Assembly (NCBI GenBank): GCA_020446505.1
Contig: JAGREN010000016.1
Span: forward strand, 1-63,722
Source: Novosphingobium sp.
Lineage (GTDB): Bacteria > Pseudomonadota > Alphaproteobacteria > Sphingomonadales > Sphingomonadaceae
DNA length: 63,722 bases
Reading direction: 5' to 3'
In this document: in pieces, positions 3,232 to 18,649 of the stretch
How positions within the stretch are numbered: position 1 is the stretch's first letter
Layout of the letters: the number at the start of each line of letters is the position of its first letter
Notes under the pieces: model-generated
What the model was told of the DNA's origin: nothing
The model's input: the letters and a program-made list of their open reading frames with translations, nothing else
Databases searched by the model: none
Translations under genes and position numbers: made by a program

Positions 3232-3420
3232 ATGTTCGTGAAATTCACATGCACTGATCGGGTCGCAACAGTGGTCAACGCGGCGCAGATCACCTTCATT
3301 TCGCCGGTCGAGGATGGCACCCGTATCCGTTTCGGCGAAGGCAGGAGCGTCACGGTCGTCGAACCAATCGACGAAGTGATGGACAGGCTCGACCGAACGC
3401 AATCGTTCCCGCGCGAATAA
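3232..3420 (+). CDS. Small conserved-type hypothetical protein (62 aa)
   Basis: A short soluble protein with a compact alternating strand pattern, for example AAQITFISPVEDGTRIRFG followed by SVTVVEPIDEVMDRL. It resembles small uncharacterised proteins I associate with sphingomonads; no function is known to me. The start ATG has GGGAG about nine bases upstream. It stands alone between the tRNA and the nitronate monooxygenase gene, with no clear operon partner. Confidence 0.55.
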   Translation: MFVKFTCTDRVATVVNAAQITFISPVEDGTRIRFGEGRSVTVVEPIDEVMDRLDRTQSFPRE

Positions 3421-3627
3421 ACTCGCACCCGTTCATGCTGGTTACCGCGTGGCATTGAATTGACTGACGCTCAGGGCCTCAGCCTGCTGTGCATGTACGC
3501 TGCTTGATCAGGCGCCTGCCCCCGGCGACTGCATTGCGAAAGACATGATCAGTTGCGCGGAGCCGGTCGATAGGGGCGAAGCACCTTGCGCAGCCTGTTC
3601 ACGGTGCGCGAGCGTCAGAGCTGCCCG

Positions 3628-4695: not shown

Positions 4696-4705
4696 CGGTC
4701 TGTCC

Positions 4706-5125
4706 TCACGACGCCAGCAGCAGTTTGCGGAAGTCGCCCTTACGCGCGATCACGTCGGCCAGTGAGTAGCTGTCCAGAACCGAGAGGAATGCTTGCAGTG
4801 CTTCATCCAGCACGCTGGTGACGCCGCACGCCTTGCCAATGATGCACGAGCCACAATCGACCAGGTCGAAATTGTCCTCGGTGTGCCGGATCAGTGCGCC
4901 CATATTGATTGCGCTTGCCGGACGGGCGAGCCTGATGCCGCCATTGCGCCCCCTCACGCTTTCCAGATAGCCCGCGTTCACGAGGTCATTCACCACCTTC
5001 ATCAGGTGATTCTGGGAAACCCCGTAACCCCTCGCGATCTCGGCAATCGAGCAAAGCCGCTCCGGCTCCTGCCCGAGGTAGAGCAGAACCCGCATGGCGT
5101 AATCGGTGTAGCGCGTCAGGCGCAT
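4706..5125 (-). CDS. nsrR: Rrf2-family regulator, NsrR (nitric-oxide-sensing repressor)
   Basis: A 139-residue winged-helix regulator beginning MRLTRYTDYAMRVLLYLG, the standard NsrR opening. The recognition helix region is GVSQNHLMKVVNDLV and the wing RGRNGGIRLAR. Three cysteines, in CGSC-(5)-C spacing near residues 92-101, can hold an iron-sulphur cluster that reacts with NO. The start at 5125 fits this family; an upstream in-frame ATG would add 24 unusual residues. It diverges from the haemoglobin-hmp operon, and two NsrR-type palindromes lie in the shared intergenic region. It therefore probably represses both directions. Identity as NsrR rather than IscR rests on sequence feel plus context. 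Confidence 0.87.
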   Translation of the reverse strand: MRLTRYTDYAMRVLLYLGQEPERLCSIAEIARGYGVSQNHLMKVVNDLVNAGYLESVRGRNGGIRLARPASAINMGALIRHTEDNFDLVDCGSCIIGKACGVTSVLDEALQAFLSVLDSYSLADVIARKGDFRKLLLAS

Positions 5126-5143
5126 GGGGCCGGAAAAATAATC

Positions 5144-5160
5144 ATGCATTTCTATTGCAT
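5144..5160. promoter_or_regulatory. NsrR-like operator 1 (nsrR-proximal)
   Basis: ATGCATTTCTATTGCAT has the ATGCA/TGCAT half-sites typical of NsrR boxes (consensus arms AAGATGCATTT). It lies 19 bases upstream of the nsrR start and is centred about 37 bases from the second box. Confidence 0.6.
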
Positions 5161-5180
5161 GTTTTTGTCGGCGCGTATAG

Positions 5181-5197
5181 ATGCATTGCAAATGCAT
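5181..5197. promoter_or_regulatory. NsrR-like operator 2 (haemoglobin-proximal)
   Basis: ATGCATTGCAAATGCAT is a perfect 7-base inverted repeat (ATGCATT/AATGCAT) with a 3-base spacer, closely matching the core of the NsrR consensus. It ends 17 bases before the trHb start codon, so repressor bound here would block the promoter or initiation region. Confidence 0.7.
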
Positions 5198-5214
5198 GAT
5201 TAGGAGATTCGCTC

Positions 5215-5616
5215 ATGACCGGCCTGCCGCTGACCGATGAAGCGCTCGAAGAGCTGGTCGCGGCCTTTTATGCGCGCGTCCGGGCCGATGCCGAGCTGGG
5301 GCCGATCTTCAATGACGCAATCGATGACTGGCCCGAGCATCTGGACAAGCTGGCGGCCTTCTGGTCGTCGGTGATGCTCACCACGGGTCGCTACAAGGGC
5401 CAGCCTGTGCCTGCCCATGCGAAGCACAGCAGCAGGATAACGCCTGAACTGTTCGATCGGTGGCTGGGCCTGTGGGCGCAGACCACGCATGAACTCATGG
5501 CGCCCGAAGCCGCATCCCAGCTTCAGGACAAGGCGGCGCGGATTGCAGAGAGCCTGAAACTTGCCCTGTTCTTTCGCATGCCAGAGCGCGGCGCGAAGGA
5601 CAGGGCGGCTGCCTGA
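5215..5616 (+). CDS. Group III truncated haemoglobin
   Basis: A 133-residue 2-over-2 globin. The C-terminal half reads AHAKHSSRITPELFDRWLGL, with His68 the probable proximal haem ligand, and FWSSVMLTTGRYKGQP is the family's E-helix region. It lacks the glycine motifs of groups I and II. Group III haemoglobins are often linked with NO or nitrite stress. AGGAG precedes the start within the NsrR-controlled region. It is the first gene of a three-gene unit with the DUF1971 protein (1-base gap) and flavohaemoglobin. The likely job is NO binding or scavenging in the cytoplasm. Confidence 0.9.
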   Translation: MTGLPLTDEALEELVAAFYARVRADAELGPIFNDAIDDWPEHLDKLAAFWSSVMLTTGRYKGQPVPAHAKHSSRITPELFDRWLGLWAQTTHELMAPEAASQLQDKAARIAESLKLALFFRMPERGAKDRAAA

Positions 5617-5617
5617 G

Positions 5618-5890
5618 ATGACCGGTTCCGCACCATATCGCTCAACGCCCGTCTTCGATCAGGATACCTTGCCTGCCGCCTTGCGTCGTCGCCATAACAC
5701 CAAGGCAGGTGTCTGGGGACTGATCCGCGTGCTCGAAGGACAGCTCACGCTGACCTACCTCGATCCGCCGTCCGAGGTCATTCTGACACCGGGAAATCCT
5801 GGACTCGTCGAGCCGCAACAGCCCCACTTCGTGACGCCGGACGGCCCCATGAAGATGCAGGTCGATTTCTACGATCATCCGCCCGGCTGA
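5618..5890 (+). CDS. DUF1971 / YeaR-TehB-like cupin protein
   Basis: A 90-residue single-domain protein: FDQDTLPAALRRRHNTKAGVWG, then GLVEPQQPHFV and the FYDHP ending typical of DUF1971. Known: E. coli YeaR belongs to this family, and yeaR-yoaG is induced by nitrate and nitric oxide through NarL and NsrR. That fits its place between two haemoglobin genes here. The biochemical role is unknown. I start at the ATG directly after the haemoglobin stop codon; an upstream in-frame start would overlap the haemoglobin gene by over 50 bases. Confidence 0.8.
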   Translation: MTGSAPYRSTPVFDQDTLPAALRRRHNTKAGVWGLIRVLEGQLTLTYLDPPSEVILTPGNPGLVEPQQPHFVTPDGPMKMQVDFYDHPPG

Positions 5891-5938
5891 TCGACACCCT
5901 GACACGCAATCTCCAATTCCAACCTTGAAGGAACTTCC

Positions 5939-7150
5939 ATGTCTCAGCCTCTGAGTGACACGACCATTGCGCTCGTCAAAGCGACAGTCCCGGCCCTTGA
6001 AGAACACGGACTGGACATCGTGCGCGAGATGTATTCGCGCATGTTCCGGAATCCGGAAATCCGCGACCTGTTCAACCAGTCGCACCATGGCGATGCCGGA
6101 TCGCAACCGCGCGCCCTGACGGGAGCCATTCTCGCCTATGCGAGCAATATCGACAATCTCGGCGCGCTGGCTCCGGCGGTGGAACGGATCGCGCAAAAGC
6201 ATGTCGGCCTGCAGATCCTGCCCGAGCATTACCCCTATGTCGGCGAAGCCCTGCTGGGCGCGATCAAGGCGGTGCTTGGCGACGCCGCGACCGAAGAGGT
6301 TCTGAGTGCCTGGGGCGAAGCCTATTGGTTCCTCGCAAATATCCTGATCGCCCGTGAAGACCGCATCTACACCGAGCAGTCGGAAGCCACAGGAGGCTGG
6401 AACGGCTGGCGCGACTTCTGCGTGGAAGACGTGATCCGGGAAAGCAGCGTAATCAGCTCTTTCATTCTGCGCCCTGCCGATGGCGGGCCGGTCATGGAGC
6501 ACAAGGCTGGTCAGTACCTGACATTCTGGTTCGAGATACCGGGGCAGCCGCCAGTGAAGCGCAACTATTCCATTTCGTCAGCACCGAACGGGCAGACCTA
6601 TCGCATTTCGGTAAAGCGGGAACCGCAAGGGCTTGCCTCGGGCTGGCTCCACGATCACGCGAAGGTCGGCACGGTTCTGAAAGTGGCTGCCCCTGCCGGC
6701 GAATTCTTCCTTGCCGAACATCCGGAGCGGCCGGTTGTGCTCCTGTCTGGCGGCGTCGGCCTGACGCCGATGGTCGCCATGCTTGAAACGCTGGTCGCTG
6801 CCGGGGGCCATGCTCCTGTCCAATACATTCACGGCACCCATGACCGGGAAACGCACGCCATGCGCGGTGTGGTTCGCGTGCTCGCCGAAAACGCCAGGTC
6901 AGTGCAGGTCGTCGATTTCCACCAGACGCCGCTTGCCGACGAGGTGAAGGGCCTGGACTATGACGAGGCAGGCATCATCACCGATGAATGGCTGCTGGCC
7001 AATACGCCCGTGGCCAGGGCCGACTACTACATTTGCGGACCGCGCCCGTTCCTGCGCCATGCGGTTTCCACGCTGTCGCTGGCCGGTGTCCCGTTAGAGC
7101 GCATTCACTACGAGTTTTTCGGCCCGGCCGACGAACTGCTGGCAGCCTGA
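5939..7150 (+). CDS. hmp: Flavohaemoglobin, nitric oxide dioxygenase
   Basis: A 403-residue fusion of a globin (about 1-137) with a ferredoxin-NADP reductase-like FAD/NAD module. Tyr32 in EMYSRMF matches the distal B10 Tyr, and His88 in RIAQKHVG the proximal haem ligand. RNYSISSAP (208-216) is the FAD site, LLSGGVGLTPMVAML the NAD site, and the chain ends with IHYEFFGP. It converts NO plus oxygen to nitrate using NAD(P)H in the cytoplasm. AAGGAA lies just before the ATG. It is last in the NsrR-controlled unit with trHb and the DUF1971 gene; the 48-base gap before it shows no terminator. Confidence 0.95.
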   Translation: MSQPLSDTTIALVKATVPALEEHGLDIVREMYSRMFRNPEIRDLFNQSHHGDAGSQPRALTGAILAYASNIDNLGALAPAVERIAQKHVGLQILPEHYPYVGEALLGAIKAVLGDAATEEVLSAWGEAYWFLANILIAREDRIYTEQSEATGGWNGWRDFCVEDVIRESSVISSFILRPADGGPVMEHKAGQYLTFWFEIPGQPPVKRNYSISSAPNGQTYRISVKREPQGLASGWLHDHAKVGTVLKVAAPAGEFFLAEHPERPVVLLSGGVGLTPMVAMLETLVAAGGHAPVQYIHGTHDRETHAMRGVVRVLAENARSVQVVDFHQTPLADEVKGLDYDEAGIITDEWLLANTPVARADYYICGPRPFLRHAVSTLSLAGVPLERIHYEFFGPADELLAA

Positions 7151-7506
7151 CCGGAAACTCCGGACGAAGCCTTGCCTGCTCGTTCCGCCTCGCGAAGCCG
7201 GTTCTCCTGCCGGACCAGCTCTTCCTGGTGACAGAGAGGAATGTCGGCGGCTTCCTCCGTTATTGAGGCGGCTGGTCCCGGATCGGGAGCGGTCATGACG
7301 AGTTCCCCGGTTGCGATCACTTCGAAACAGTCCCTGTCGATCCGTCTGACCTCCTCCCCGGTAGCCAGTTCCAGCCGGAATGCACCGGGACGGCGGCGAG
7401 GCCCATTGGGCGTCGCGACTGTTTCGGAGAACTGGAAGGTCACGACGGTCAATGGTCTTCCGTCACTCCCGCGACATGACACCTGTGCGAGTTCGCTCTT
7501 TTCCAT
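7108..7506 (-). CDS. Conserved hypothetical protein (132 aa)
   Basis: The N-terminal half is a compact beta-rich unit (LTVVTFQFSE, PGAFRLELATGEEVRRIDRD, CFEVIATGELV) that resembles an uncharacterised family I have seen in alphaproteobacteria. The C-terminal part is charged, probably helical (CHQEELVRQENRLREAERA), then a low-complexity tail. Its 3' end overlaps hmp tail-to-tail by 43 bases. The ATG at 7506 is preferred over the GTG three bases upstream. Function unknown; the coding call is moderate. Confidence 0.55.
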   Translation of the reverse strand: MEKSELAQVSCRGSDGRPLTVVTFQFSETVATPNGPRRRPGAFRLELATGEEVRRIDRDCFEVIATGELVMTAPDPGPAASITEEAADIPLCHQEELVRQENRLREAERAGKASSGVSGQAASSSSAGPKNS

Positions 7507-7649
7507 CACCGGATCGCCTCATCGCCTGGGTGTCTCAGTGGCTTCGACATCCCGATCGGCCTTTCGCCAGAGTAGAGACTATTGGCGCGCGAGGTAAAGG
7601 ACCGAACCAGCCGCGAATGCAACAGGCAGTCCGCGCCTGTGCAGCAGTC

Positions 7650-8651
7650 TCACCATAGCCGCGTGAGAAGGTAGAACAGCGCGCCTACTGTGGCGCTCGC
7701 TGGAATGGTTACGAACCAGGCGATGATGACGCGGCTGGCCACACTCCAGCGCACCGCACTTGCACGCCGTGCTGCGCCGGTTCCGACAACGGAGCCGGTG
7801 ATGGCATGGGTCGTCGAAATGGGGATCCCCATTGCACTTGCTCCGAACACCACGAACGATCCGGCAGTCGAGGCGCAAAAGCCCGAATGGTGATTGAGCT
7901 TGGTAAGTTTGCTGCCCATCGTCTTGATGATCCGCCAGCCGCCCGAAAGCGTGCCGAGTGCAATGGCCATATAGCAGGAGATGACCACCCATTCCGGAAC
8001 GTGGAATTCGCCTCCGAGATAGCCTGTAGAATAGAGCAGCACTGCTATGACACCCATTGTCTTCTGGGCATCGTTGCCGCCGTGGCTAATGGAATAGGCT
8101 GCCGAGGAGATCAGGTGCAGCCCCTTGAAGGTGGCATTGGCGGTGCGAGGCTGGACGCCCCGAAAACCCCAGCTGGTTATCAGCATGAGGAACATGGCAA
8201 TCCCGAAACCTATGATCGGCGACAGGAAAATGGCGACGACCGTTTTGATCGTACCCGAAGACTCGACCGCACCAAGACCGGCATGCGCCACGCCAGCGCC
8301 CAGCAATCCGCCGATCAATGCATGGCTCGACGAGGACGGAATTCCCTTGAGCCAGGTCACCACATTCCAGAACATCGCGCCGATCAAGGCGCCGAAAACG
8401 ACGGCCGGCGTGACCACATCCTTGTTGATGATGCCTTTCCCGACAGTCTCCGCGACGTGCAGGCCCACGATCCAGTAGGCAGCGAAATTGCCGAACGCGG
8501 CAAATGCGACGGCCTGGACCGGCGACAGCAGCCGCGTCGAGACGACTGTTGCAATCGCGTTGGCGGCATCATGCAACCCGTTGAGGAAATCGAACGCCAG
8601 GGCCAGCGCTACGAGACCAACCAGCAGGGGCAGGGCGAGACTGTGTTCCAT
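7650..8651 (-). CDS. pit: Low-affinity inorganic phosphate transporter, Pit family
   Basis: A 333-residue inner-membrane protein with about ten hydrophobic segments and the duplicated PHO4 signature: FLNGLHDAANAIATVV near residue 22 and ISHGGNDAQKTMGV in the second half. GIPSSSSHALIGG and GIPISTTHAITGS form the paired Ser-His loops. It carries metal-phosphate coupled to protons. It follows the Nudix-DUF47 gene by 14 bases on the same strand. That is the usual pairing of Pit with its DUF47 accessory protein and places it under the Pho box upstream. Confidence 0.94.
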   Translation of the reverse strand: MEHSLALPLLVGLVALALAFDFLNGLHDAANAIATVVSTRLLSPVQAVAFAAFGNFAAYWIVGLHVAETVGKGIINKDVVTPAVVFGALIGAMFWNVVTWLKGIPSSSSHALIGGLLGAGVAHAGLGAVESSGTIKTVVAIFLSPIIGFGIAMFLMLITSWGFRGVQPRTANATFKGLHLISSAAYSISHGGNDAQKTMGVIAVLLYSTGYLGGEFHVPEWVVISCYMAIALGTLSGGWRIIKTMGSKLTKLNHHSGFCASTAGSFVVFGASAMGIPISTTHAITGSVVGTGAARRASAVRWSVASRVIIAWFVTIPASATVGALFYLLTRLW

Positions 8652-8665
8652 CGGTCCCGCTCCGG

Positions 8666-9790
8666 TCAGGAATGATCGATAACGAGACCGTCAATCTCGT
8701 TGGCGACATCCTCGAAACGATCGACCACGCGCTCCATGCGCTTGAACATCTCCTGTCTGACAACGAACTGGAGCGGGTCTTTCTCGCCTATTTCCTTGAA
8801 AATGCGCTTGAGACCGGCGGCGTGGATTTCGTCCGCGTGACCTTCCATTCGCACGATGCGCTCTGTCAGTTCGTGAAGCCGCGCACCGTTGTCCGCAATC
8901 TTGCGCAAGAGAGGCATCGCTTCAGCCGTGAGCCTTGCCGCGTCAACTATGATCGCGGCGATGTCGCGCATCTCCGGCTCGAACTCCGAGATTTCATAGA
9001 GGTCGACGGCACCTGCCGTCTGCTGCATCTCGTCAATTGCATCGTCCATCCGTGCGATCAGATCGGTGATCGCAGCCCGGTCGAAGGGCGTGAGGAACGT
9101 CTTGCGCACGCTGTGCAGGACTTCGCGCGTGATATTGTCGGCTTCGTGTTCGCGCTCTTCAATTTCGCGAATGTGCTCGGCTTTGCCGGGACCGCCTTGC
9201 AGCAACCGTGCAAGGGCGTCTGCTCCCGCCACCAGCGTCCCCGCTTGCTTCTCGAACAGTTCGAAGAAGTTGCCCTGCTGCGGAAGCAGCCTCTGAAACC
9301 AGGCGAACATGGCATTGACCCCCGTTTTGTCTGCAACAACGTCCATGATGTTGGCGACCTGCGTAGCCGCCTTGAATTCCCTCGTGCCGAAACTGCCGAT
9401 CAGCGCGCGCAAATCCGGTTCGTCCACGGCTTGAGCTGCCTCGGCCAATGTGAACCAGCGGCGCTCCCGCTCGTGTTGTTCCTTCCAGCTATCCAGTTCT
9501 TCAGTCACCGCGAAGGGAAAGACCTCGACGTCGGTCCAGATGGACGCGCCCGATGAGCGGCGCTTGCGATAGCGATAGGAGCCGATCGACGTCGGACAAG
9601 CCGAACCAAGCACGCCCGCTTCCTCTTCTGCCTCGATGGCAGCGCTCGCATGCGGTGGCAGCTTTCCGATCGGCCTTCCCTTGGGGATGACCCATCTCCC
9701 GGTTCCGCGAGACGTGATCAGGAGGATGTAGATTTGAGAATCGGGAGCCGGTGAGGCCGCGCGATAGGGCAAAACAGCGATCTGCTGCAT
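8666..9790 (-). CDS. Nudix hydrolase fused to DUF47 (PhoU-like) Pit accessory protein
   Basis: One 374-residue frame contains two families. Residues 1-137 are a Nudix domain of the diphosphoinositol-polyphosphate-hydrolase-like type: WVIPKG, then the box from Gly38 to Val60. The box keeps Glu53, Glu56, Glu57 and Gly59, but has Leu44 and Ile52 where the strict consensus has Glu and Arg. Residues 161-374 (MFAWFQRLLPQQGNFFELFE onward) are a full-length DUF47 helical bundle, normally a separate protein of about 214 residues that controls Pit. The internal ATG at 9310 has GGGGG seven bases upstream, so free DUF47 might also be made. Co-transcribed with pit; a Pho box lies about 63 bases upstream. 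Confidence 0.88.
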   Translation of the reverse strand: MQQIAVLPYRAASPAPDSQIYILLITSRGTGRWVIPKGRPIGKLPPHASAAIEAEEEAGVLGSACPTSIGSYRYRKRRSSGASIWTDVEVFPFAVTEELDSWKEQHERERRWFTLAEAAQAVDEPDLRALIGSFGTREFKAATQVANIMDVVADKTGVNAMFAWFQRLLPQQGNFFELFEKQAGTLVAGADALARLLQGGPGKAEHIREIEEREHEADNITREVLHSVRKTFLTPFDRAAITDLIARMDDAIDEMQQTAGAVDLYEISEFEPEMRDIAAIIVDAARLTAEAMPLLRKIADNGARLHELTERIVRMEGHADEIHAAGLKRIFKEIGEKDPLQFVVRQEMFKRMERVVDRFEDVANEIDGLVIDHS

Positions 9791-10156
9791 GGCAATTGCG
9801 AACCTCCCCTTGTTGGCTGTCGTGATAAACCGGCTAGGAAATTTGCCGGTTCATGACAATTTTATGACAATCGTTTCCCACCGATTTGCCATGCCGATCC
9901 ATGAACCGGTTGCCGGGCCGCGCGGCAAGCGCCGAGCACTTTCATCCTTCGGAGCAAGGTCCGTTCACAGCCGTTCGAATGCTGCGGTCGGTCCACTCGG
10001 AATCTTCTTCGCGGCGCAATGACCGGCGGCGTCATGGACCTGCTCCGCGCGGCCTGTTGCCAATTGTGCGAAGACTTTCCTGCAAAATTTTTCCGGCTTT
10101 CAACTGCGGAGCCCGCCAGATGACGGCGTCGTTGCATCGAGACCATGGAGTTGTCG
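9791..10156. other. Divergent regulatory gap between phosphate operon and haemolysin-ligase operon
   Basis: 366 bases without a gene I can support. It carries the Pho box near its left end. The right half must hold the promoter of the haemolysin-AMP-ligase operon. An AT-rich patch (GCAAAATTTTTCC near 10081) is visible, but I see no confident sigma-70 or ECF-type promoter pair. Confidence 0.5.
9853..9871 (-). promoter_or_regulatory. Pho box (PhoB binding site)
   Basis: Read on the minus strand, TGTCATAAAATTGTCAT is two TGTCAT repeats 11 bases apart with an AT-rich spacer. This matches the E. coli Pho-box pattern almost exactly. It sits 63-81 bases upstream of the Nudix-DUF47 start, a normal distance for PhoB activation or repression, so phosphate limitation probably controls this operon. 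It could also affect the divergent operon starting near 10157. Confidence 0.75.
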
Positions 10157-10702
10157 ATGCAAACCAAGCCACCGAGCGACTTGATCCGCAGGAAATACCA
10201 GGAGGTGTTTGGTGCCGCCTTTCGTCCTTCGTTCGAAAGCTGGATGCATGCGGGCAATGGCGAGGGAGCAGCGCTTGGATACTGCCGGGCCGGAGCGCAG
10301 CCGCTCTATCTGGAAGGCTATCTGGACTGCCCGATCGAGGACATGGTGAGCGCGGCACTCGGTCGGCAGGTCGAGCGCAATTCGATCATAGAGATCGGCA
10401 ACCTCGCAGCCGATAGCGCACCCGGCATGGTGGAACTGTGGGGCCAGGCGGCCAACGACCTCGGCGGCAATGGCGAAGTCGCCGTCGCAACTCTCACGGC
10501 CAAAGTGAGGCGCATGTTTGCACGGATCGGCTTGCCGGTTACGGTGCTGGCGCCTGCCCGGCCTGAACGCCTTGGCACAGGTGCCGCCCAGTGGGGCAGC
10601 TACTACGAATCCGATCCGATGGTCTGCATGGGCGTCATTGCTGAAGGGCAGGCCGCACTCTCGGCTTTCCTGGCCCGCCGCAGCCGCAAGGCCGCGGCAT
10701 GA
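10157..10702 (+). CDS. Thermostable-haemolysin-family protein
   Basis: The 181-residue product matches the T_hemolysin family. YQEVFGAAFRPSFESWM opens it; LYLEGYLDCPIEDMVSAALG, then VERNSIIEIGNLA, IGLPVTVLAPARPERLG and WGSYYESDPMV follow in the family's order. The founding member is a Vibrio haemolysin. Family members look like cytoplasmic acyltransferase-fold proteins rather than pore formers, and this one has no signal peptide. I start at the ATG at 10157 because GGAG lies six bases upstream; another ATG exists at 10145. It overlaps the AMP-ligase by four bases (ATGA) and heads an eight-gene run. Its true activity is unknown; a role in making an acylated product is inference from the operon. 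Confidence 0.82.
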   Translation: MQTKPPSDLIRRKYQEVFGAAFRPSFESWMHAGNGEGAALGYCRAGAQPLYLEGYLDCPIEDMVSAALGRQVERNSIIEIGNLAADSAPGMVELWGQAANDLGGNGEVAVATLTAKVRRMFARIGLPVTVLAPARPERLGTGAAQWGSYYESDPMVCMGVIAEGQAALSAFLARRSRKAAA

Positions 10703-12759
10703 CCATCCTGTTCGATTCCCTGAAGCGCAACGCTGCAACGCAGCCGGAAGGCGTGGCGCTGGATGACACCGCCGGCCACACCGTGACGTGGGCGCAATTG
10801 CTCAGCTCCGTCGAGCGGATCGCCGCGCAACTTCGCAGCGATCACGATCCGCAGCGACCGGTTGCCCTGCGGCTCGATCATTCACCGGAGACAGTCGTTC
10901 TGGAACTGGCCCTGCTCGAAGCGGGCGTTCCGGTGCTGTCCCTTCCCTCATTCTTTACGGAGGGGCAAAGCGACCATGCCCTTTCCGTGTGCGGCGCCCG
11001 AGCCATTTTCGCTGTTAGCCCTCGCGAAAAAGCTCAAGACTGCCGTACCGCGCCGTCCCCGCTCCCCTACGGGACGGCGCGGATCACTTTCACCTCGGGA
11101 TCGACAGGTTCGCCCAAGGGCGTGTGCCTGTCTTCCGGGCACATGCTGACTGTCGCGCAAGCCGTTGTCGACGCCCTGGGCAACGAACATGCGGGGCGAC
11201 ATCTCGCGCTGCTGCCTCCCGGCATCCTGCTGGAAACAGTCGCCGGTCTCTTTGCCACTCTGCTGGCTGGCGGAACCTACGTTTGCCCGCCACAGGCAGA
11301 GGCCGGGCTGGCCAATCCGTTCCGCCCCGATTTCGGCAAGATGCTCTGGCTTGTCGCCAGCCAGTCGATCACCTCGCTGATCCTCGTACCCGAGTATCTC
11401 ACAGGTCTCGTCACGGCGATGGAAGAGACAGGGCTGCGCCTGCCGAAGCTGACGCTGGTCGCGGTCGGCGGTGCGCATACGTCACCCGAGCTGATTGCTC
11501 GCGCTCGCGCTCTCGGCTTGCCGGTCCGCCAAGGCTACGGCCTTACCGAATGCGCTTCGGTCGTCAGCCTCGAGCAGGCGGACAGCGATCTGCCCGGATC
11601 GGTGGGCAAGCCGCTCGCACACCTGAATGTCCGGATTTCGGACGACGGCGAGGTCGTGATCGACGGCCCGACCTGTCTCGGAACAGTCGGGGGCGAGCCT
11701 CATCCGGGACCGCTTCACACTGGCGACCTGGGCCGGATCGACGAACAGGGCCGCCTGTGGATCTCGGGCAGGAAATCGAACCTGATCGTCACCAGCTTCG
11801 GCCGCAACGTTTCGCCCGAATGGGTCGAGGCGGTGCTTCTCCAGCAGCCGGGGATTGCCCAGGCGATGGTCTTTGGCGACGGCGGTCCCGCGCCCCAGGC
11901 GCTTCTCGTGCCTTCACACCCGCGCGCCGATCTTGCCGCCGCCGTGGCAGCGGCCAACGCCTCTCTGCCAGCCTACGCGCAGCTCTCCGCCTGGCGCGAG
12001 GTTGCGCCCTTCACCCCGATGAACGGCATGCTGACCGGCAATGGTCGCCTGCGCCGCGATGCCATTGCGTCGACCTGGCTGGCTGACGGCCAGCCCGACT
12101 TTTTCACCGAGCTTGAAGCTGCGACCCTGCGCCAGCGCATGGCGTTCCTGAGCATTCCGCAGGTTCAGGCGGGCCTGACCGGCCAGATCGGCCTTCAAAC
12201 CTATCGCGACTACCTCGCGCAGGCCTGGCATCATGTGCGCCACACGGTGCCGCTGATGCAGGCCGCACGCGCCAGACTGCTGCATCGCCCCGAACTGGTT
12301 GCCGCGCTGGATGACTATATCGAAGAGGAAGACGGCCACGACGAGTGGATCCTTTCCGACATCGCAGCGGCAGGTGGCGACGCCGAAGCCATTCGCCGGA
12401 GCGAGCCTGCCCATGCCACCCGCGCCATGGTGCAGCACGCCTACGAATGCATCGGCAACGGCAACCCCGTTTCCTTCTTCGGCATGGTCTACGTGCTCGA
12501 GAGCGTCAGCGTAGCGCTGGCGCAGCGCGGCGCTTCTGCCGTGGCCGAGCGGCTGGGACTTCCGCCAAAGGCGTTCACCTACCTGACCTCGCACGGTGCG
12601 CTCGATCAGGATCACATGCGCTTTTTCGCCGAACTCGTGAACGGCCTTGCCGATCCGGCCGACCGCGAGACCATCGTCACGATGGCGCGCGACATGTTCG
12701 CGCTGTTCGGCGAGGTCTTCGCTTCCATCAGTCTGGAGACGCTCGATGTCGCTGCTTGA
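10699..12759 (+). CDS. AMP-dependent ligase fused to HDO-type di-iron oxidase domain
   Basis: 686 residues. The first 460 form an ANL adenylating enzyme: TFTSGSTGSPKG (130-141, P-loop), QGYGLTE (278-284), HTGDLG (340-345). The usual catalytic Lys near the end of the core is Arg450 in LTGNGRLRR. Residues about 490-680 are a haem-oxygenase-like helical domain with a complete metal set: E544xxH547, E601 and H632xxxD636xxH639, as in UndA-like oxidases and the iron-containing redox enzyme family. No carrier-protein domain is present. It is coupled by ATGA to the haemolysin-family gene and overlaps the SDR by 14 bases. Likely role: activation of an acyl or amino acid and its oxidation; the substrate is unknown. 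Confidence 0.88.
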   Translation: MTILFDSLKRNAATQPEGVALDDTAGHTVTWAQLLSSVERIAAQLRSDHDPQRPVALRLDHSPETVVLELALLEAGVPVLSLPSFFTEGQSDHALSVCGARAIFAVSPREKAQDCRTAPSPLPYGTARITFTSGSTGSPKGVCLSSGHMLTVAQAVVDALGNEHAGRHLALLPPGILLETVAGLFATLLAGGTYVCPPQAEAGLANPFRPDFGKMLWLVASQSITSLILVPEYLTGLVTAMEETGLRLPKLTLVAVGGAHTSPELIARARALGLPVRQGYGLTECASVVSLEQADSDLPGSVGKPLAHLNVRISDDGEVVIDGPTCLGTVGGEPHPGPLHTGDLGRIDEQGRLWISGRKSNLIVTSFGRNVSPEWVEAVLLQQPGIAQAMVFGDGGPAPQALLVPSHPRADLAAAVAAANASLPAYAQLSAWREVAPFTPMNGMLTGNGRLRRDAIASTWLADGQPDFFTELEAATLRQRMAFLSIPQVQAGLTGQIGLQTYRDYLAQAWHHVRHTVPLMQAARARLLHRPELVAALDDYIEEEDGHDEWILSDIAAAGGDAEAIRRSEPAHATRAMVQHAYECIGNGNPVSFFGMVYVLESVSVALAQRGASAVAERLGLPPKAFTYLTSHGALDQDHMRFFAELVNGLADPADRETIVTMARDMFALFGEVFASISLETLDVAA

Positions 12760-13501
12760 CGGCAAGACAGTTGCCATCACCGGCGCCGCTGGCGGACTGG
12801 GCGCGCCTGTTGCCCGGTTGCTTGCCGAAGCCGGTGCGCGCACGGTCGGCATCGACCGGGTGGATTGCCCTGCCTGCGACGAGAGCATCGTCACCGACCT
12901 GTCCGACGACGCGGCCCTCACCGCGCTCTCGGACAGGTTGGCGGGCGACGCGCCCGACGTGCTGGTCAATATCGCCGGGGTCATGCGCTTCGGACTGCAC
13001 GAGAGCCAGCCGGTCGAGGCTCTTGCCCTGTGCTACCGGGTCAACCTGCTGGTCCCTGCCGTGCTCGCGCGCGCCGTTGCCGCGCCGATGCGCAGGCGCG
13101 GGTCGGGACAGATCGCCAACATCGGTTCGGTGCTCGGCTCGATCCCCTATCCGTGGTTCGCGGCCTATTCGAGCAGCAAGGCGGGTCTTGCCGCGCTGTC
13201 GCAGGGCCTCCGCCGCGAGCTTCAGGGCACCGGCGTCACCGTCACGCACGTCAACCCGCGCGCCGCGCGCACCGCCTTCAACAATGCCGAGGTCAACCGC
13301 TTCCTCGACGTGACAGGCATGAATGCCGACGAGCCTGACTGGGTCGCGCGGCGCATCGCCCGCGCCATTCTCGCGCGTGAGGAAACCGTATCCATCGGTG
13401 CGATGGAACGTCTGTTCGCGGTCCTCAACGCCATTTCCCCGAGGCTGATCGACAACGGCCTCAAGTCGCAGAACCGGCGCGCACGCGCCGAATTTTCCTG
13501 A
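12746..13501 (+). CDS. Short-chain dehydrogenase/reductase (SDR) in the ligase operon
   Basis: 251 residues with the Rossmann glycine motif TGAAGGLG (12-19), NIAGVM (75-80), Ser128 and YSSSK (Tyr141, Lys145): a complete classical SDR. GIDRVD after the second strand hints at NAD(H) preference because of the acidic residue. Its start lies inside the 3' end of the AMP-ligase gene (14-base overlap), strong evidence for co-translation. It probably reduces or oxidises the product of the ligase-oxidase; no substrate can be assigned. Confidence 0.9.
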   Translation: MSLLDGKTVAITGAAGGLGAPVARLLAEAGARTVGIDRVDCPACDESIVTDLSDDAALTALSDRLAGDAPDVLVNIAGVMRFGLHESQPVEALALCYRVNLLVPAVLARAVAAPMRRRGSGQIANIGSVLGSIPYPWFAAYSSSKAGLAALSQGLRRELQGTGVTVTHVNPRAARTAFNNAEVNRFLDVTGMNADEPDWVARRIARAILAREETVSIGAMERLFAVLNAISPRLIDNGLKSQNRRARAEFS

Positions 13502-13520
13502 ACCAGACGGAGTACGAAAA

Positions 13521-14165
13521 TTGAAGAAGCGTTTCACTCTCGCAGCCAGCCTCGCCGCGGTCCTGATGGCGGCGACGCCCGGAGTGGCTTCCGCCGGAAT
13601 GACCGAAGACGTCAAGGCGATCAACGATGGCTGGGCACACATCACCTATGAGGTGAAGGGTTCCAGCACCCAGACCAAGGCGCTCGACAAGCTGGCCGGG
13701 CAGGCCGCTGCGCTGGTCGCCAGGTATCCCGGCAAGGCCGAACCGCTGCTGTGGCAGGGCATCGTCGTGAGCGAGCAGGCGAACCGCGCCAACATGTTCC
13801 ACAAGCTGGGCATCGCCAAGCGCGCCTTCTCGATCCTGTCGAAGGCCTATGCCATCGATCCCAGGGCAGCCAACGGCGGCGCGGCCATGAGCCTCGGCGT
13901 GCTCTACTACAAGGTGCCCGGCTCGCCGATCGGCTTCGGCGACGATGCCAAGGCGCTGCGACTGCTCAAGCAGGCGCTTGCGCTCGATCCCGATGGCCTC
14001 GACTCCAACTATTTCATGGGCGACTACCAGCTCGATCAGGGCGACAAGGCCGCTGCCCGCACCTATCTGACCAGAGCGCTGAAGGCGCCCCACGATGCCA
14101 GCCGTCCGGCATGGGACGCCGGACGTCGCCGCGAAGTGAGGGCTCTGCTCGCCAAGGCTGCCTGA
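13521..14165 (+). CDS. Secreted TPR-like helical repeat protein
   Basis: 214 residues. KKRFTLAASLAAVLMAATPGVASA is a clear signal peptide. The mature part is alpha-helical with TPR-like repeats (AEPLLWQGIVVSEQAN, AFSILSKAYAIDPRA, ALRLLKQALALDPDG, YFMGDYQLDQGDKAAARTYL). Such proteins act as binding scaffolds, here probably in the periplasm. It starts at TTG with GGAG eight bases upstream, and its stop overlaps the methyltransferase start (TGATG). Being the only exported protein among the presumed biosynthetic genes, it may link product assembly or export to the membrane. No family name beyond the repeat is recognised. Confidence 0.82.
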   Translation: MKKRFTLAASLAAVLMAATPGVASAGMTEDVKAINDGWAHITYEVKGSSTQTKALDKLAGQAAALVARYPGKAEPLLWQGIVVSEQANRANMFHKLGIAKRAFSILSKAYAIDPRAANGGAAMSLGVLYYKVPGSPIGFGDDAKALRLLKQALALDPDGLDSNYFMGDYQLDQGDKAAARTYLTRALKAPHDASRPAWDAGRRREVRALLAKAA

Positions 14166-14785
14166 TGGGCCTCGCCCGCCGGTTCGCCGAGCAACTTGCG
14201 CGACCAGAAGGGTTCGCTGGCAAGTTGCTCGGCAATGCCATGGATGTTGCCAATCGCCGCCCGACCCGTCTCGCGCTCGATCTGCTCGGCGCGCGGGACG
14301 GCGAGCGCGTTCTCGATGCAGGCTGCGGAACGGGCGCGACCCTCGACGTTCTCCTCGACAGGGCAATGGTCGACGCATGGGGCATAGACCCGTCGCCGAC
14401 CATGATCGCGCAGGCACGAGCGCGGCTCGGTGACCGGGCGCGGCTCGAAAAATGCCTGATCGAGGACATGTGGTTCGGCGACGACACCTTCGATGCGGTG
14501 CTCGCGTTGAACGTGCTGTACTTCGCAAGGCCGGATGGCAGCACCTTGCGGCAGATCCATCGCGTGCTGCGCCCCGGCGGCAGGCTGGTCGCCTATGTCA
14601 CGCACCGCGAAAGCATGGAGAACTGGCCGTTCGCCCGGCAGGGCGTCCACCGGCTGTTCGATACAAATGAACTTGTTGACGAACTGATCGCAGGCGGATT
14701 TGCGCGAGCAGGGATTTCAGTGCAGGAACACGCCATCACCGGGTCGGTGGATGGCCTGCTGGCCTGTGCAACGAAGGAATCCTGA
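14165..14785 (+). CDS. Class I SAM-dependent methyltransferase
   Basis: 206 residues. Motif I is VLDAGCGTGATL (49-60), the acidic residue after strand 2 is in WGIDPSPTMI, motif IV is FDAVLALNVLYFA, and VLRPGGRLVAYV follows. This is the UbiE/COQ5-like small-molecule methyltransferase group. It overlaps the TPR gene by one base and ends 12 bases before the sigma factor gene, so biosynthetic and signalling genes seem to share one transcript. The substrate is unknown; N-, O- and C-methylation are all possible. Confidence 0.88.
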   Translation: MGLARRFAEQLARPEGFAGKLLGNAMDVANRRPTRLALDLLGARDGERVLDAGCGTGATLDVLLDRAMVDAWGIDPSPTMIAQARARLGDRARLEKCLIEDMWFGDDTFDAVLALNVLYFARPDGSTLRQIHRVLRPGGRLVAYVTHRESMENWPFARQGVHRLFDTNELVDELIAGGFARAGISVQEHAITGSVDGLLACATKES

Positions 14786-14797
14786 GCGGGACAAGGT

Positions 14798-15418
14798 GTG
14801 AGGGCTGACGAAGAAGACCAAAGCCGCCCTGCCGGCCTTGCCGCCCTGTTCGAGCACCATCGCAAGGAGCTGCTGCGCTTTCTGGCGGCTCGCTGCGGCG
14901 ATTCCGATCTTGCGCAAGACCTGCTTCAGGACATGTGGTTCAAGGTTTCCGGCGCTCCGGGCGGACCGATCGGTAACGGGCGCGCCTATCTCTTTCGCAT
15001 GGCAAACAACCTCGTGCTCGACTTTCGCCGGTCCCGCCAGCGCGCGATGCGGCGCGACTACGGGTGGCTGGACGAGGATGGCGGCGGCTCGTCCCTGCCG
15101 GAGGAGCGGCCCGACCCTTCGCCAGCCGCCGACGATCAGCTTGCGCGGCAGCAGGAAGCAGAGATGCTCCACCGGGTCATCGCCGGACTGCCACCGGGAG
15201 CACAGCGCGCGCTGCGGCTCCACCGGCTGGAAGGTCATCCACAGGCCGAGGTGGCTGAAATCATGGGAATCAGCCGTAGCGGCGTTGAAAAGCACCTCGC
15301 CGTCGCCATGAAACATCTCAAAAATGCACTTGCCGACTGCGGATACTTATCCACGGCGGCGTCACAGCAACAAGGGCTTCCAGGCGGGCAGGGTCCGCAA
15401 CCGGAATCAAGACGATGA
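14798..15418 (+). CDS. ECF RNA polymerase sigma factor, FecI-like
   Basis: 206 residues with region 2 (LFEHHRKELLRFLAARCGDSDLAQDLLQDMWF, AYLFRMANNLVLDFRR) and region 4 (EVAEIMGISRSGVEKHLAVAMKHL). FecI-type sigma factors are released when a TonB receptor with a signalling domain signals through FecR. GTG start; its stop overlaps the fecR start (ATGA). The C-terminal tail of about 25 residues is low-complexity. It probably drives this operon or the receptor in response to an external ligand. Confidence 0.92.
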   Translation: MRADEEDQSRPAGLAALFEHHRKELLRFLAARCGDSDLAQDLLQDMWFKVSGAPGGPIGNGRAYLFRMANNLVLDFRRSRQRAMRRDYGWLDEDGGGSSLPEERPDPSPAADDQLARQQEAEMLHRVIAGLPPGAQRALRLHRLEGHPQAEVAEIMGISRSGVEKHLAVAMKHLKNALADCGYLSTAASQQQGLPGGQGPQPESRR

Positions 15419-16365
15419 ACAGGGACGACGAGATCATATTCGCCGAGGCGCTGCGCTGGCATGCGGCCTCAGACAGCGACAGCATGGACTGGGACGGGTT
15501 CACCGACTGGCTCGAGGCCGACTCGCGCCATCGCGATGCCTATGACAGCGTCGCGCTGGGCGATGCAATGTTTGCGGACCACGGCGCTGACCTGCTCGAA
15601 GCCTTTCCCGCCGTCGCCAACGACCAGGGCGAGGCAACCGTCGTTCCATTGCGCACGAATCGCGGCTGGATGCGCTGGGCCGGCATGGCGGTTGCCGCAT
15701 CGCTCGTGGCGATGCTGGCGCTTCCGCAGGTGTTGACGCCATCCCCGCAACGCTTCGAAGCTGGCGCGCAGAGCCGCACGATTGCGCTCGACGACGGGTC
15801 CACGGTAATCCTCGCTCCGCGCAGCACGCTTGAAGTGGCAGGCCGCCATCAGGAGCGCATGGCGCTTAGCGGAGGTGCCTGGTTCGATGTGCGTCACGAT
15901 CCTTCGCGCGCGCTGACGATCGAGGCCGACGGGGTCCAGATCTCCGACATCGGCACGCAGTTCGACGTGCAGGCCGCTGGCGGTCAGGTGCGCGTCGAAG
16001 TTGCCGAGGGCAAGGTCGAGGTCCGCTCCGATGCGATGGCGCAACCGGTGCGCCTGACCCAGGGCCGCAGCCTCAGCTACGATCCGAAGCAGGGCACGGC
16101 ACTCGTCAGGCCGGTTGCGAACAATGACATCGGCGAATGGCGCTCGGGTCGCCTGTCTTTCGATATGGCACCCTTGACGCTGGTCGCGGCCGATCTCAGC
16201 CGCTATGCGGGCGTCGAAGTGACGGTTGACGAGAGTCTTCGCAGCCGGGCGTTTTCGGGGACTCTGGTCATTAACAATGGCGATGCGGCAGTGCGTGATC
16301 TCACCCAGCTCATGGGCCTTGGCCTCGCTGGCTCCGCTGGCGATTATCGCATCGAGCCCCGCTGA
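15415..16365 (+). CDS. FecR-family anti-sigma / transmembrane signal transducer
   Basis: 316 residues. A cytoplasmic N-terminal DUF4880-like region (ALRWHAASDSDSMDWDGFTDWLEAD) would bind the sigma factor. One membrane span lies at about 87-105 (WAGMAVAASLVAMLALPQVL). The periplasmic FecR domain includes ALDDGSTVILAPRSTLEV and ISDIGTQFDVQ, and a C-terminal DUF4974/STN-like domain starts around PLTLVAADLSRYAGVEV. It would carry the receptor signal across the inner membrane. Its last 83 bases overlap the predicted receptor signal peptide in another frame. Confidence 0.92.
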   Translation: MNRDDEIIFAEALRWHAASDSDSMDWDGFTDWLEADSRHRDAYDSVALGDAMFADHGADLLEAFPAVANDQGEATVVPLRTNRGWMRWAGMAVAASLVAMLALPQVLTPSPQRFEAGAQSRTIALDDGSTVILAPRSTLEVAGRHQERMALSGGAWFDVRHDPSRALTIEADGVQISDIGTQFDVQAAGGQVRVEVAEGKVEVRSDAMAQPVRLTQGRSLSYDPKQGTALVRPVANNDIGEWRSGRLSFDMAPLTLVAADLSRYAGVEVTVDESLRSRAFSGTLVINNGDAAVRDLTQLMGLGLAGSAGDYRIEPR

Positions 16366-18649
16366 GGCGCGCGACGCCAGCTATCAGATCGACATTCCCG
16401 CCAGCACCCTGCCAGAGGCGCTGGCTGTCCTGTCCCGGCAGACCGGCGTTTCGATAGGCACCGATGGCGCATTGCCGCATCGCGCCACGCCCGCCCTGCG
16501 CGGCAGGATGAGCGTCGCAAGCGCGCTGCAACGCCTGCTTTCGGGAAGCGGACTGGTGGCACGCAAGGTCGGCGCAACGGCATGGCGGGTCGAGCGCGGC
16601 AGGTCTCCGTCGCTGGCCGAACAAGGACCCCGCACGCCCTCGAAAGCGACTGCTCCCACCCCGGTGGACGCTCCCGAAAACGAGACGATTGTCGTTACGG
16701 CAGCCAAGCGATCCGCCGCACTCGATACCCTGCCGATGGCGGTATCGGTGGTCACGCTCGACGAAAGTCAGCAAAGCTCGGCCCAGAACGGCACGTCGCT
16801 TGTCGCCCAGCGCAGCGAAGGACTGGCGATGACCTCGCTGGGTCCGGGGCGCAATCGCCTGTTCCTGCGCGGGGTCGCCGACAGTCCCTTCACGGGCGAG
16901 AGCCAGTCGACGGTGGCCGTGGTGTTCGACGAAGCGCGGCTGACCTATGCCGCGCCCGATCCCGACATCCGCCTTGTCGACGTCGAGCGGGCCGAAGTTC
17001 TCAAGGGGCCGCAGGGCTCGCTTTACGGCACCGGAGCGCTCGGCGGAATCTATCACATCGTGCCGCGCAGGGCCAACCTCGAAGAGACGACGCTCGCTGT
17101 TTCGCTAGCGGGCGATACGATTGCGCACGGCAGGCTCGGGTGGAGCGGGTCTGCTATCGCCAACCTGCCGCTGGCGCGCGACACCATCGGCGTGCGGCTG
17201 GTCGGCTATTCGGAGCGAGAGTCGGGCTGGATCGACACTGGCGACCGGGATGACAGCAACAGTTCGCGGCTGCTGGGCGCGCGCGCCAATCTCGGAATTG
17301 CGGCTGGCGGCAGCTGGCGTATCGATCTTTCCGGCCTGGTCCAGCTGCTTGAATCGCGTGACAGCCGCTACGTCTACGAACCGGGTGCGCGGGTGCGCCC
17401 CGCGCAGATGCCGGAACCGCACGACAATGACATGCGCCATGTCTCCGCACGCCTCGCGCGCGAGGGTGGCGGGGTCGACATTACCCTGTCATCGGGCATG
17501 TCCTGGCACGAAGTCGGCGATACGCTCGACGCCACGATCGGCGCGGAAAGTTTCGGCCTCGCCCAGCCAAGCGAACTCGAAGACAGCAAGTACTACAAGG
17601 TGTGGGACAGCGAAGCGCGCATTTCCGGTCACGCTGGCGGCCTGCGTTGGCTCGCCGGGCTCAGCCATGTCGAAGCCCGGCAATCCGTGCTCTGGACCCT
17701 GAACTCGTTCACGGACGCATCGATGATTATCGACGACGATCGCCGCAATACGTCGGACACCGCGCTGTTCGGCGACCTGACCTTGCCACTCGGCGGCAAG
17801 TTCACTGTCGATGCGGGAGCGCGACTCTACCACTCGAAGGTCGTGGAGACGCGGAAGCTGGCCACTGAGATGGTGACGCGCCATCAGCAGCGGACCGGTG
17901 TCACGCCCAGTCTCGCTTTTTCATGGCGACCGGGTCCGGGGCAGATCGTTTACCTGCGATATGGATCGGCATTCCGGCAGGGCGGATCGGATATCGGCGC
18001 GGACGGCTCGATCGAAACGCTCAAGGGCGACGAGTTGCAGACGCTGGAAGCAGGATGGCGGCGCCAGATCGGACGAGGCGGCCGGATCGACATAGGCATT
18101 TTTGCCTCGCGTTGGCAGAACCTTCAGTCGGACATGCTCCAGCCCAACGGCCTGATCGAGAGCGCGAACGCCGGGGACGCCAGGATCAAGGGGGCAGAAG
18201 CGACCTTCGACCTGCCGATTGCAGACCGGCTGCGGATCGAAGGCGGCGCGAATTTCACGGACGCGCGCCTTACGCGCAACATGCTCGGCGCGAGGCTGGA
18301 CGATCGCCGGCTGCCGGTGGTGCCGCGCTACACCGCGCGGATCGGCTTCCAGCACGATCTTGCGATCCGCGGTGTCGATGTGACCTTGCGCGCGAATGTC
18401 CGCTATGTCGGGCCTCAACGCCTCAGTTTCGACCCGGCAGTCGACCGGCCGATGGGTTCCTATTTCGAGAACGCGATCGAAGTGCAGGCAAGGCTGGGCG
18501 CGGCGCACCTGGCGCTGTCCGCCGAGAACCTGTTCGGCTCGGCCGACGACAGCTTCGCATTCGGCAATGCCCTGCGCTTTGCAACCGGCCGTCAATATAC
18601 CCCGCAAAAGCCGGCCAGCCTGTCCATGCGGATTGGCATGGACTTCTGA
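16283..18649 (+). CDS. TonB-dependent outer-membrane receptor with STN signalling domain
   Basis: About 788 residues. Signal peptide MRQCVISPSSWALASLAPLA to about residue 30; STN (secretin/TonB N-terminal) domain YQIDIPASTLPEALAVLSRQ; TonB box-like ETIVVTAAKR; plug domain with LFLRGVADSPFTGES and VLKGPQGSLYGTGALGG; then the beta barrel ending RIGMDF with the terminal aromatic. The STN domain predicts dialogue with FecR. Start uncertain: the ATG at 16283 lacks a good ribosome site, and any start leaving a signal peptide overlaps fecR. The ligand is unknown and could be the product of the upstream genes. Confidence 0.9.
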   Translation: MRQCVISPSSWALASLAPLAIIASSPAEARDASYQIDIPASTLPEALAVLSRQTGVSIGTDGALPHRATPALRGRMSVASALQRLLSGSGLVARKVGATAWRVERGRSPSLAEQGPRTPSKATAPTPVDAPENETIVVTAAKRSAALDTLPMAVSVVTLDESQQSSAQNGTSLVAQRSEGLAMTSLGPGRNRLFLRGVADSPFTGESQSTVAVVFDEARLTYAAPDPDIRLVDVERAEVLKGPQGSLYGTGALGGIYHIVPRRANLEETTLAVSLAGDTIAHGRLGWSGSAIANLPLARDTIGVRLVGYSERESGWIDTGDRDDSNSSRLLGARANLGIAAGGSWRIDLSGLVQLLESRDSRYVYEPGARVRPAQMPEPHDNDMRHVSARLAREGGGVDITLSSGMSWHEVGDTLDATIGAESFGLAQPSELEDSKYYKVWDSEARISGHAGGLRWLAGLSHVEARQSVLWTLNSFTDASMIIDDDRRNTSDTALFGDLTLPLGGKFTVDAGARLYHSKVVETRKLATEMVTRHQQRTGVTPSLAFSWRPGPGQIVYLRYGSAFRQGGSDIGADGSIETLKGDELQTLEAGWRRQIGRGGRIDIGIFASRWQNLQSDMLQPNGLIESANAGDARIKGAEATFDLPIADRLRIEGGANFTDARLTRNMLGARLDDRRLPVVPRYTARIGFQHDLAIRGVDVTLRANVRYVGPQRLSFDPAVDRPMGSYFENAIEVQARLGAAHLALSAENLFGSADDSFAFGNALRFATGRQYTPQKPASLSMRIGMDF

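Follow-up and report, generated by a model that had tools for sequence, protein, structure and literature searches.

A conserved Novosphingobium locus that links a putative N-acyltransferase enzyme set to a FecI/FecR-type signalling system

The locus

The 63,722-nucleotide stretch analysed here, which we call the window, comprises positions 1 to 63,722 of contig JAGREN010000016.1 from a Novosphingobium sp. assembly (GCA_020446505.1). It contains a module in which a T_hemolysin family protein (TH) and a set of putative enzymes are followed by consecutive genes for an extracytoplasmic function (ECF) sigma factor, a FecR-type regulator and a TonB-dependent receptor. An earlier note, made from the sequence alone, had named eight genes on one strand with tight junctions. 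Open reading frames (ORFs), sequence and Pfam matches confirm all eight, and the junctions are, in order, -4, -14, +19, -4, +12, -4 and about -89 bases, negative values being overlaps. The features are as follows.

10103..10130, + strand: putative ECF-type promoter of the enzyme operon, ACTGCGG-N17-CGTC, a motif found upstream of TH in relatives
10157..10702, + strand: TH, predicted LuxI/FeeM-fold N-acyltransferase (PF12261, 125.9 bits)
10699..12759, + strand: ANL adenylate-forming ligase and haem-oxygenase-like oxidase (HDO) in one ORF (PF00501, AMP-binding; PF14518, Haem_oxygenas_2)
12746..13501, + strand: short-chain dehydrogenase/reductase (SDR; PF00106, 108.8 bits)
13521..14165, + strand: TPR-repeat protein (TPR Pfam matches) with a signal-like N-terminus in its translation
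14162..14785, + strand: class I S-adenosylmethionine-dependent methyltransferase (PF08241, 72.7 bits)
14798..15418, + strand: FecI-like ECF sigma factor (Sigma70_r2, r4_2)
15336..15363, + strand: second putative ECF-type promoter, ACTGCGG-N17-CGTC, before fecR and inside the 3' end of the sigma gene
15415..16365, + strand: FecR-type sigma regulator (PF04773, 62.9 bits)
16277..18649, + strand: TonB-dependent receptor (PF00593 and PF07715 above cut-off)

For TH, an ATG at 10145 is an alternative start; we prefer 10157, which is preceded by GGAG and lies at a distance from the promoter that agrees with that in relatives. For the receptor, too, the start (16277) is our own choice, and it gives the overlap of about 89 bases with fecR. 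The receptor had earlier been described as STN-type: its assignment as a TonB-dependent receptor stands, whereas its STN domain is weak (PF07660, 24.0 bits against a cut-off of 28.4). The TPR protein, judging by its N-terminus, is probably periplasmic.

Conservation in Sphingomonadaceae

HDO matches at E <= 1e-20 are present in 25 of 195 genomes of the genus and 20 of 249 genomes drawn from the family, both counts including the window's own genome; the module lies on plasmid pLA3 of the environmental isolate N. pentaromativorans US6-1, and Novosphingobium sp. PP1Y gives a match as well. We compared 42 Sphingomonadaceae loci from 41 genomes (the window, L043 and L175-L214), leaving out three family genomes with an HDO match (G659, G710, G741). 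Counting ANL and HDO apart, 32 of the 42 have all nine parts in the expected order on a single strand. Among the others, sigma, FecR and receptor are missing from L175, L191, L192, L195 and L212; in L201 the receptor was not recognised, yet a long ORF follows FecR; L211 has no SDR and L214 no methyltransferase, which is present in 40 of the 42 loci. L213 carries FecR and receptor upstream of TH, and a sigma gene whose product is 48% identical lies beyond the compared stretch (G702:C2:318691-319239). In L198 (G412; 3382-9893 in reverse-complement coordinates), which has no TH, SDR, TPR protein or methyltransferase, ANL-HDO stands directly before sigma-FecR-receptor, with both promoter motifs.

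The junctions are conserved as well. Measured with the start codon nearest the previous stop, TH and ANL overlap by 4 bases in 35 of 41 loci, the ligase-oxidase and SDR by 14 in 35 of 40, and sigma and FecR by 4 in 29 of 36. It had been proposed that the enzyme genes and the FecI/FecR/receptor genes are halves of one unit, with their co-occurrence named in advance as a check. The halves are commonly found together: a same-strand sigma gene lies within 8 kb in 36 of the 42 loci, L213 being a 37th just outside the stretch; in 33 of the 34 loci where it was measured, the gap from methyltransferase to sigma does not exceed 23 bases; and a shared motif, described below, precedes both. From this comparison the eight genes appear to be a conserved unit, beyond chance.

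The enzyme core outside sphingomonads

A scan with the HDO alignment, taking one genome per species, found at least 556 stretches that encode a relative, of which we kept 80 named loci in Gamma- and Betaproteobacteria. On the same strand within 7 kb of HDO, these carry TH (78), ANL (78), SDR (78), a TPR protein (75), a response regulator (64) and a histidine kinase (63); where TH and ANL (two loci) or SDR (two loci) are absent, the contig stops at that point. As a check independent of HDO, we searched 299 genomes of the phylum for TH, obtained 69 matches and read 20 of these, hand-picked to spread over genera, finding ANL in 19, HDO in 18, a TauD-type oxygenase in 1, SDR in 17, a TPR protein in 17 and two-component genes in 6. 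The one locus of these 20 that lacks ANL (L019) is on a contig of 3.4 kb, of which 1.3 kb remain downstream of TH.

In a tree of 126 ANL rows (stretches of fewer than 330 residues excluded), the 42 sphingomonad rows occupy one side of a branch with support 100 by a quick tree method, and the label of fused or split changes five times (sphingomonads, Marinobacter, Marinomonas, Photobacterium and Ketobacter). A TauD-type gene takes the place of HDO beside TH-ANL in Paracoccus plasmid pAK1 (L049) and in L348 (G190). Since the same substitution is seen in the Serratia operon discussed below, an iron-dependent oxygenase may be a fixed requirement. In pAK1 a DUF6134 gene adjoins the TH-ANL-TauD genes.

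The response regulators are nearest PmrA/QseB and the kinases nearest QseC, all below curated cut-offs in the one to two representatives compared. In L074, L076, L086 and 12 more of L050-L129, three further genes follow those of the two-component system: they encode a cupredoxin, an FTR1-like permease and an unknown protein, about 250 residues long and exported. Neither of the last two has a Pfam match at E 0.1 in its L074 copy, and the name FTR1 is that given in the plasmid annotation. On the Alteromonas plasmid pBGP9, an annotated TonB-dependent siderophore receptor lies about 4 kb downstream.

TH and its partner enzymes

The AlphaFold model of TH has a mean pLDDT of 90.8 and a predicted GNAT fold. 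In a VIA structure comparison of this predicted model, which is the evidence for the fold, the top nine rows are acyl-homoserine lactone (AHL) synthases and FeeM, and the likeness extends across the whole domain. N-acyltransferases of the LuxI/FeeM type have a catalytic E-x-x-R type motif; the conserved glutamate of TH, E79, is invariant in 86 of 86 aligned rows and aligns in register with that of LuxI. Sequence comparisons give less. Against Pfam at E up to 0.1, TH listed only PF12261 and neither PF00765 (Autoind_synth) nor PF21926 (FeeM). In profile-profile comparison LuxI stood out at E 0.0038, which is suggestive and by itself weak, while FeeM (0.11) and Acetyltransf_5 (0.17) were no better than nulls; a PDB sequence search with TH, single or as a profile, returned weak matches to unrelated molecules only. 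We consider TH, on its predicted structure, likely to be a LuxI/FeeM-fold N-acyltransferase, which revises the earlier statement that T_hemolysin proteins have no clear enzyme role. The predicted acyltransferase fold also lends support to the acylated product that had been proposed.

That TH is a true pore-forming or lytic protein, which the other genes modify or secrete, is suggested by the family name and by the haemolytic activity reported for Vibrio cholerae delta-VPH, as quoted in PMC4046660. We regard this as highly improbable and reject a pore-forming toxin as the principal explanation of TH on its predicted fold, with AHL synthases and FeeM on top. The TH translation also has no signal-like N-terminus, its linkage with ANL, HDO and SDR is near-fixed, and ChoA, an N-acyl glycine synthase annotated as a haemolysin, offers a precedent in which the lipid product lyses red cells and the purified protein does not (PMC5643525).

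In HDO, numbered from base 12130, E67, H70, E124, H155, D159 and H162 are invariant in 86-87 rows, giving three histidines and three carboxylates as putative iron ligands. Compared by eye, this set resembles the MboA ligands in PMC13185094; the spacing from aspartate to histidine differs, being 3 in HDO and 5 in MboA. SDR has S128, Y141 and K145 invariant in 86 rows, and ANL has TSGSTGxPKG- and YGLTE-type nucleotide motifs, the latter mostly YGLSE in relatives.

The metallophore suggested in the earlier note, a product that would chelate iron or copper and return through the receptor, we keep as a minor and unlikely rival. It accords with the FecI/FecR/receptor architecture, with TonB-siderophor being the receptor's best NCBIfam row, though below cut-off (99.6 against 223.5), with the cupredoxin and FTR1-like genes (15 of 80 loci each, as for the unknown protein) and with the siderophore-type receptor near the pBGP9 locus. 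However, among the best 25 rows for each of the eight window proteins no siderophore-specific biosynthetic family (non-ribosomal peptide synthetase, NIS and the like) is above its curated cut-off, the few siderophore-type rows lying far under theirs. No exporter is encoded among the eight genes, and relatives of the window receptor were not found in the two-component loci with a simple gene caller, which missed genes.

A putative promoter before both halves

We sought a loose motif (CTG-N-GG, 12-19 bases, CGTC) within 120 bases before TH and found it in 33 of 41 upstream regions, compared with 0.6% in mononucleotide shuffles; L198, having no TH, is outside the 41, and L175, with a short upstream region, counts as a miss. 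By eye, six of the eight misses (L180, L193, L204, L206, L208, L212) are variant-like, L191 has the CGTC half only and L175 meets the contig end. With the spacer fixed at 17, a search of both strands of the 42 loci (644,498 bases) gives 81 matches, of which 33 lie before TH, 32 before FecR, 1 before the ANL of L198 and 15 elsewhere. The distance from motif to start is 53-56 bases for TH in 29 of 33 and 76-79 bases for FecR (projected start) in 28 of 32. The motif was defined without the FecR site, and columns that were not searched agree in both sets (GG is mostly followed by A, and CGTC is preceded by G-Y-G). As the FecR site lies within the sigma gene, we considered the protein sequence (D-C-G at the sigma C-terminus) as the cause of the motif there. 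Codon usage argues against this: the glycine codon is GGA in 29 of 32 sites, against 11.5% of glycine codons in the sigma, fecR, SDR and ANL stretches. Our case for the motif is built on its position, the second site, the conserved unsearched columns and the genomes without a sigma gene. The window's own TH site departs from the refined motif at one position, with A in place of G, and with one mismatch allowed the loose motif is not enriched in the window (8 found, 6.72 expected).

Genome-wide, the refined motif occurs 119 times in the 41 module genomes against 31 for a reversed control; for 41 Novosphingobium genomes in which no HDO match is listed, the figures are 18 against 23. One genome of the latter kind has a motif pair (G005:C1:1547769 and 1548783) near-identical to the DUF2334/glycosyltransferase sites of G424. 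Sigma homologues of 54-69% identity are found in most of the 41 module genomes. G368 and G424 have no linked sigma gene, keep the TH motif, and encode unlinked sigma factors of 60% and 59% identity; G406, with no sigma above 39%, has no refined motif and lacks the first motif half upstream of TH. In G562 and G634 the linked sigma is at about 40% identity and there is no refined match, which we read as joint divergence of sigma and motif.

Among 20 extra regions chosen for motif matches outside the module, nine (L310-L314, L323-L326) have the motif before members of a DUF2334/glycosyltransferase/DUF2141 cluster, named from the domains of L310 and by similarity elsewhere. In L315, L316 and L320 it precedes a gene with no Pfam match, the L316 copy adjoining a polysaccharide-flippase-type gene; in L316 and L329 it precedes an Exo_endo_phos gene. 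L317 (G737, 10884-14914) holds a second sigma-FecR-receptor set apart from the enzymes, with the motif before sigma and FecR, and six regions give no clear picture. Outside the module, the window's own genome has a single refined match, which starts about 155 bases upstream of an MlaA gene (PF04333, 190.3 bits). The same sigma may read these sites.

A flavohaemoglobin-like gene, recognised from translation only, lies 3 kb upstream of the module (5939-7150, +), and one also adjoins a motif match in L319 (G640), which may be coincidence. Also from translation only, the ORF at 8666-9790 (-) has a NUDIX-hydrolase-like N-terminus and a PhoU-like DUF47 C-terminus; it adjoins a PiT-type phosphate permease gene (7650-8651).

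Exchange of sensor, regulator and control site

The loci of the other type have a different element before TH. A direct repeat, TTAA-N7-TTAA, which we take to resemble a PmrA box, is present in 62 of 84 upstream regions against 0.92 expected from block shuffles. The 84 are 78 of the 80 scan loci (L071 and L123 were left out, their contigs beginning at HDO) and six plasmid loci (L044-L049); the Paracoccus plasmid locus, the sole alphaproteobacterial one of the six, has no such box. The box is concentrated at this position, 71 of the 111 copies in 1,614,757 bases falling inside the 350-base stretches before TH, and it accompanies the two-component system, being found in 49 of 60 scan loci with one downstream and 5 of 14 without any nearby. 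It occurs in 0 of 41 sphingomonad regions, whereas the ECF-type motif occurs in 33 of 41 sphingomonad regions and 0 of the 84 others. The set of enzymes has thus stayed together through a joint change of sensor, regulator and control site, which would be expected if the operon must answer to a cue sensed at the envelope.

There is a possible rival, which we rank close behind the favoured N-acyl product set out below: a membrane-resident acyl-amino lipid would alter the outer membrane in response to envelope stress, and the receptor or two-component system would sense an external cue (metal, cationic peptide or host polymer) rather than the product. The PmrA/QseB-like regulators, below curated cut-offs as they are, the PmrA-type boxes, the motif before glycosyltransferase/DUF2334/DUF2141 clusters (9 of 20 regions) and the MlaA gene, and the FTR1-like and cupredoxin genes that 15 of the 80 loci have as neighbours would all suit it. 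On the other hand, the presence of a dedicated TonB-dependent receptor and FecR suggests that a specific ligand is taken up or sensed at the surface, and a LuxI-like fold does not predict membrane retention.

A proposed mechanism

We give an even chance to the hypothesis that the product of the module is an amphiphilic N-acyl molecule, active at the envelope or outside it, and that this molecule feeds back on its own operon by way of the receptor. Support at the level of sequence lies in the conservation of the unit, in the fold predicted for TH, and in the two sets of motifs and the way they are exchanged. For the substrates, step order, product, receptor ligand, recognition of the motif by sigma and direction of feedback, we infer the following. 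With acyl-ACP or acyl-CoA as the donor, TH would attach a fatty acyl group to an amino acid or amine; ANL would activate a carboxylate of this acyl intermediate; the fused HDO would oxidise it with O2; SDR would reduce or oxidise it; and in sphingomonads the methyltransferase would cap it. This order, from TH acylation through ANL, HDO and SDR reduction to methylation, is plausible. The TPR protein may help the product across the periplasm. The product, or a cue tied to it, would then occupy the TonB-dependent receptor at or outside the outer membrane, FecR would relay the signal to the ECF sigma factor, and sigma would start transcription at the promoters before TH and fecR as well as at envelope genes in other parts of the genome. 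The corresponding role in Gamma- and Betaproteobacteria would fall to a PmrA/QseB-like two-component system acting through the TTAA-N7-TTAA box. Rather doubtful, in our view, is an acyl-signal circuit, in which TH proteins would be LuxI-fold synthases of an N-acyl signal that ANL, HDO and SDR finish, and which would be sensed outside the cell, without a cytoplasmic LuxR, through exchangeable envelope relays (two-component in Gamma- and Betaproteobacteria, receptor-FecR-sigma in sphingomonads).

Several observations weigh against the N-acyl product hypothesis. Ten of the 42 sphingomonad loci are incomplete, and no exporter gene is among the eight. Three residues after its conserved glutamate, where the E-x-x-R motif has arginine, TH has asparagine in 68 of 86 rows, so that its acceptor may differ from that of the AHL and glycine enzymes. 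At the A10 position of ANL, which we take to be that of the catalytic lysine, the window has arginine (R 74, K 9, T 1, L 1, gap 1; n=86); adenylation may therefore be weakened and the activity unusual. The simple gene caller found no relatives of the window receptor in the two-component loci, so that the product need not be the receptor's ligand. The motif was found and counted on the same TH loci, which are related, so the counts are not independent. In the whole of the window's own genome the loose motif is rarer than its reversed control (6 against 18), which makes the motif evidence positional. Finally, G662 has no sigma at E 1e-25, yet has one refined match and a near-variant before TH.

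Comparison with known systems

The earlier note knew of no described pathway with this gene set. For the sphingomonad version that still holds: our literature search, which covered few subscription papers and no preprints, found no paper on it, its promoters, an enzyme role for TH or the product, and the available main text of a US6-1 transcriptome paper mentions neither hemolysin nor FecR (PMC6163740). The core itself, by contrast, has been noted with QseBC and an iron transporter in 24 Pseudoalteromonas genomes and taken as virulence-related, with no biochemistry in the part available (PMC6262041). That cluster, PCAR9_p0005-p0014, comprises QseBC, a putative iron transporter, two acyl-CoA synthetase genes and a thermostable hemolysin; it is like L074, L076 and other loci in placing TH and genes of ligase type next to an iron transporter and a QseBC-type system. 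In contrast to the module, neither sigma/FecR/receptor nor HDO nor a methyltransferase is mentioned in the available text, and no enzymatic function is suggested there for TH (PMC6262041). The putative operon or1352-or1355 of Serratia 39006 (TauD, AMP ligase, delta-VPH-like protein, Bcr/CflA transporter; PMC4046660) likewise brings together TH, an AMP ligase and an iron-dependent oxygenase; unlike the module, its oxygenase is TauD-type rather than HDO, it has a transporter, and sensor genes are not named in that part of the paper.

FeeM/LuxI-type synthases (2g0b, 1ro5, 3p2f) share with TH the whole-domain fold and the conserved glutamate in LuxI register, whereas TH has no Pfam match to either family and mostly asparagine for the motif arginine. 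ChoA, which we take to belong to PF13444, has two residues, E136 and R139, that presumably match the TH motif. Both residues are described in PMC5643525, in whose available part no ANL, HDO or SDR partners are named. T_hemolysin genes are counted as virulence genes (e.g. PMC5592226, PMC6262041); if TH proteins are N-acyltransferases, such annotations need rereading, and, as for ChoA, a lipid may be the cause of the haemolysis attributed to the protein. An enzyme set that is widespread in Proteobacteria, and for which we found no described product, becomes testable in environmental Novosphingobium. That regulator and DNA site are exchanged as a matching pair around the same enzymes would also make a clean natural case of regulatory replacement, and would guide the search for the inducing ligand.

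In FecI/FecR/FecA cell-surface signalling, an ECF sigma factor, FecR and a TonB-dependent receptor are accompanied by a promoter motif before fecR. The module likewise has an ECF sigma, FecR, a TonB-dependent receptor and a promoter motif before fecR, and differs in its weak STN domain and in carrying a second copy of the motif before a linked biosynthetic operon.

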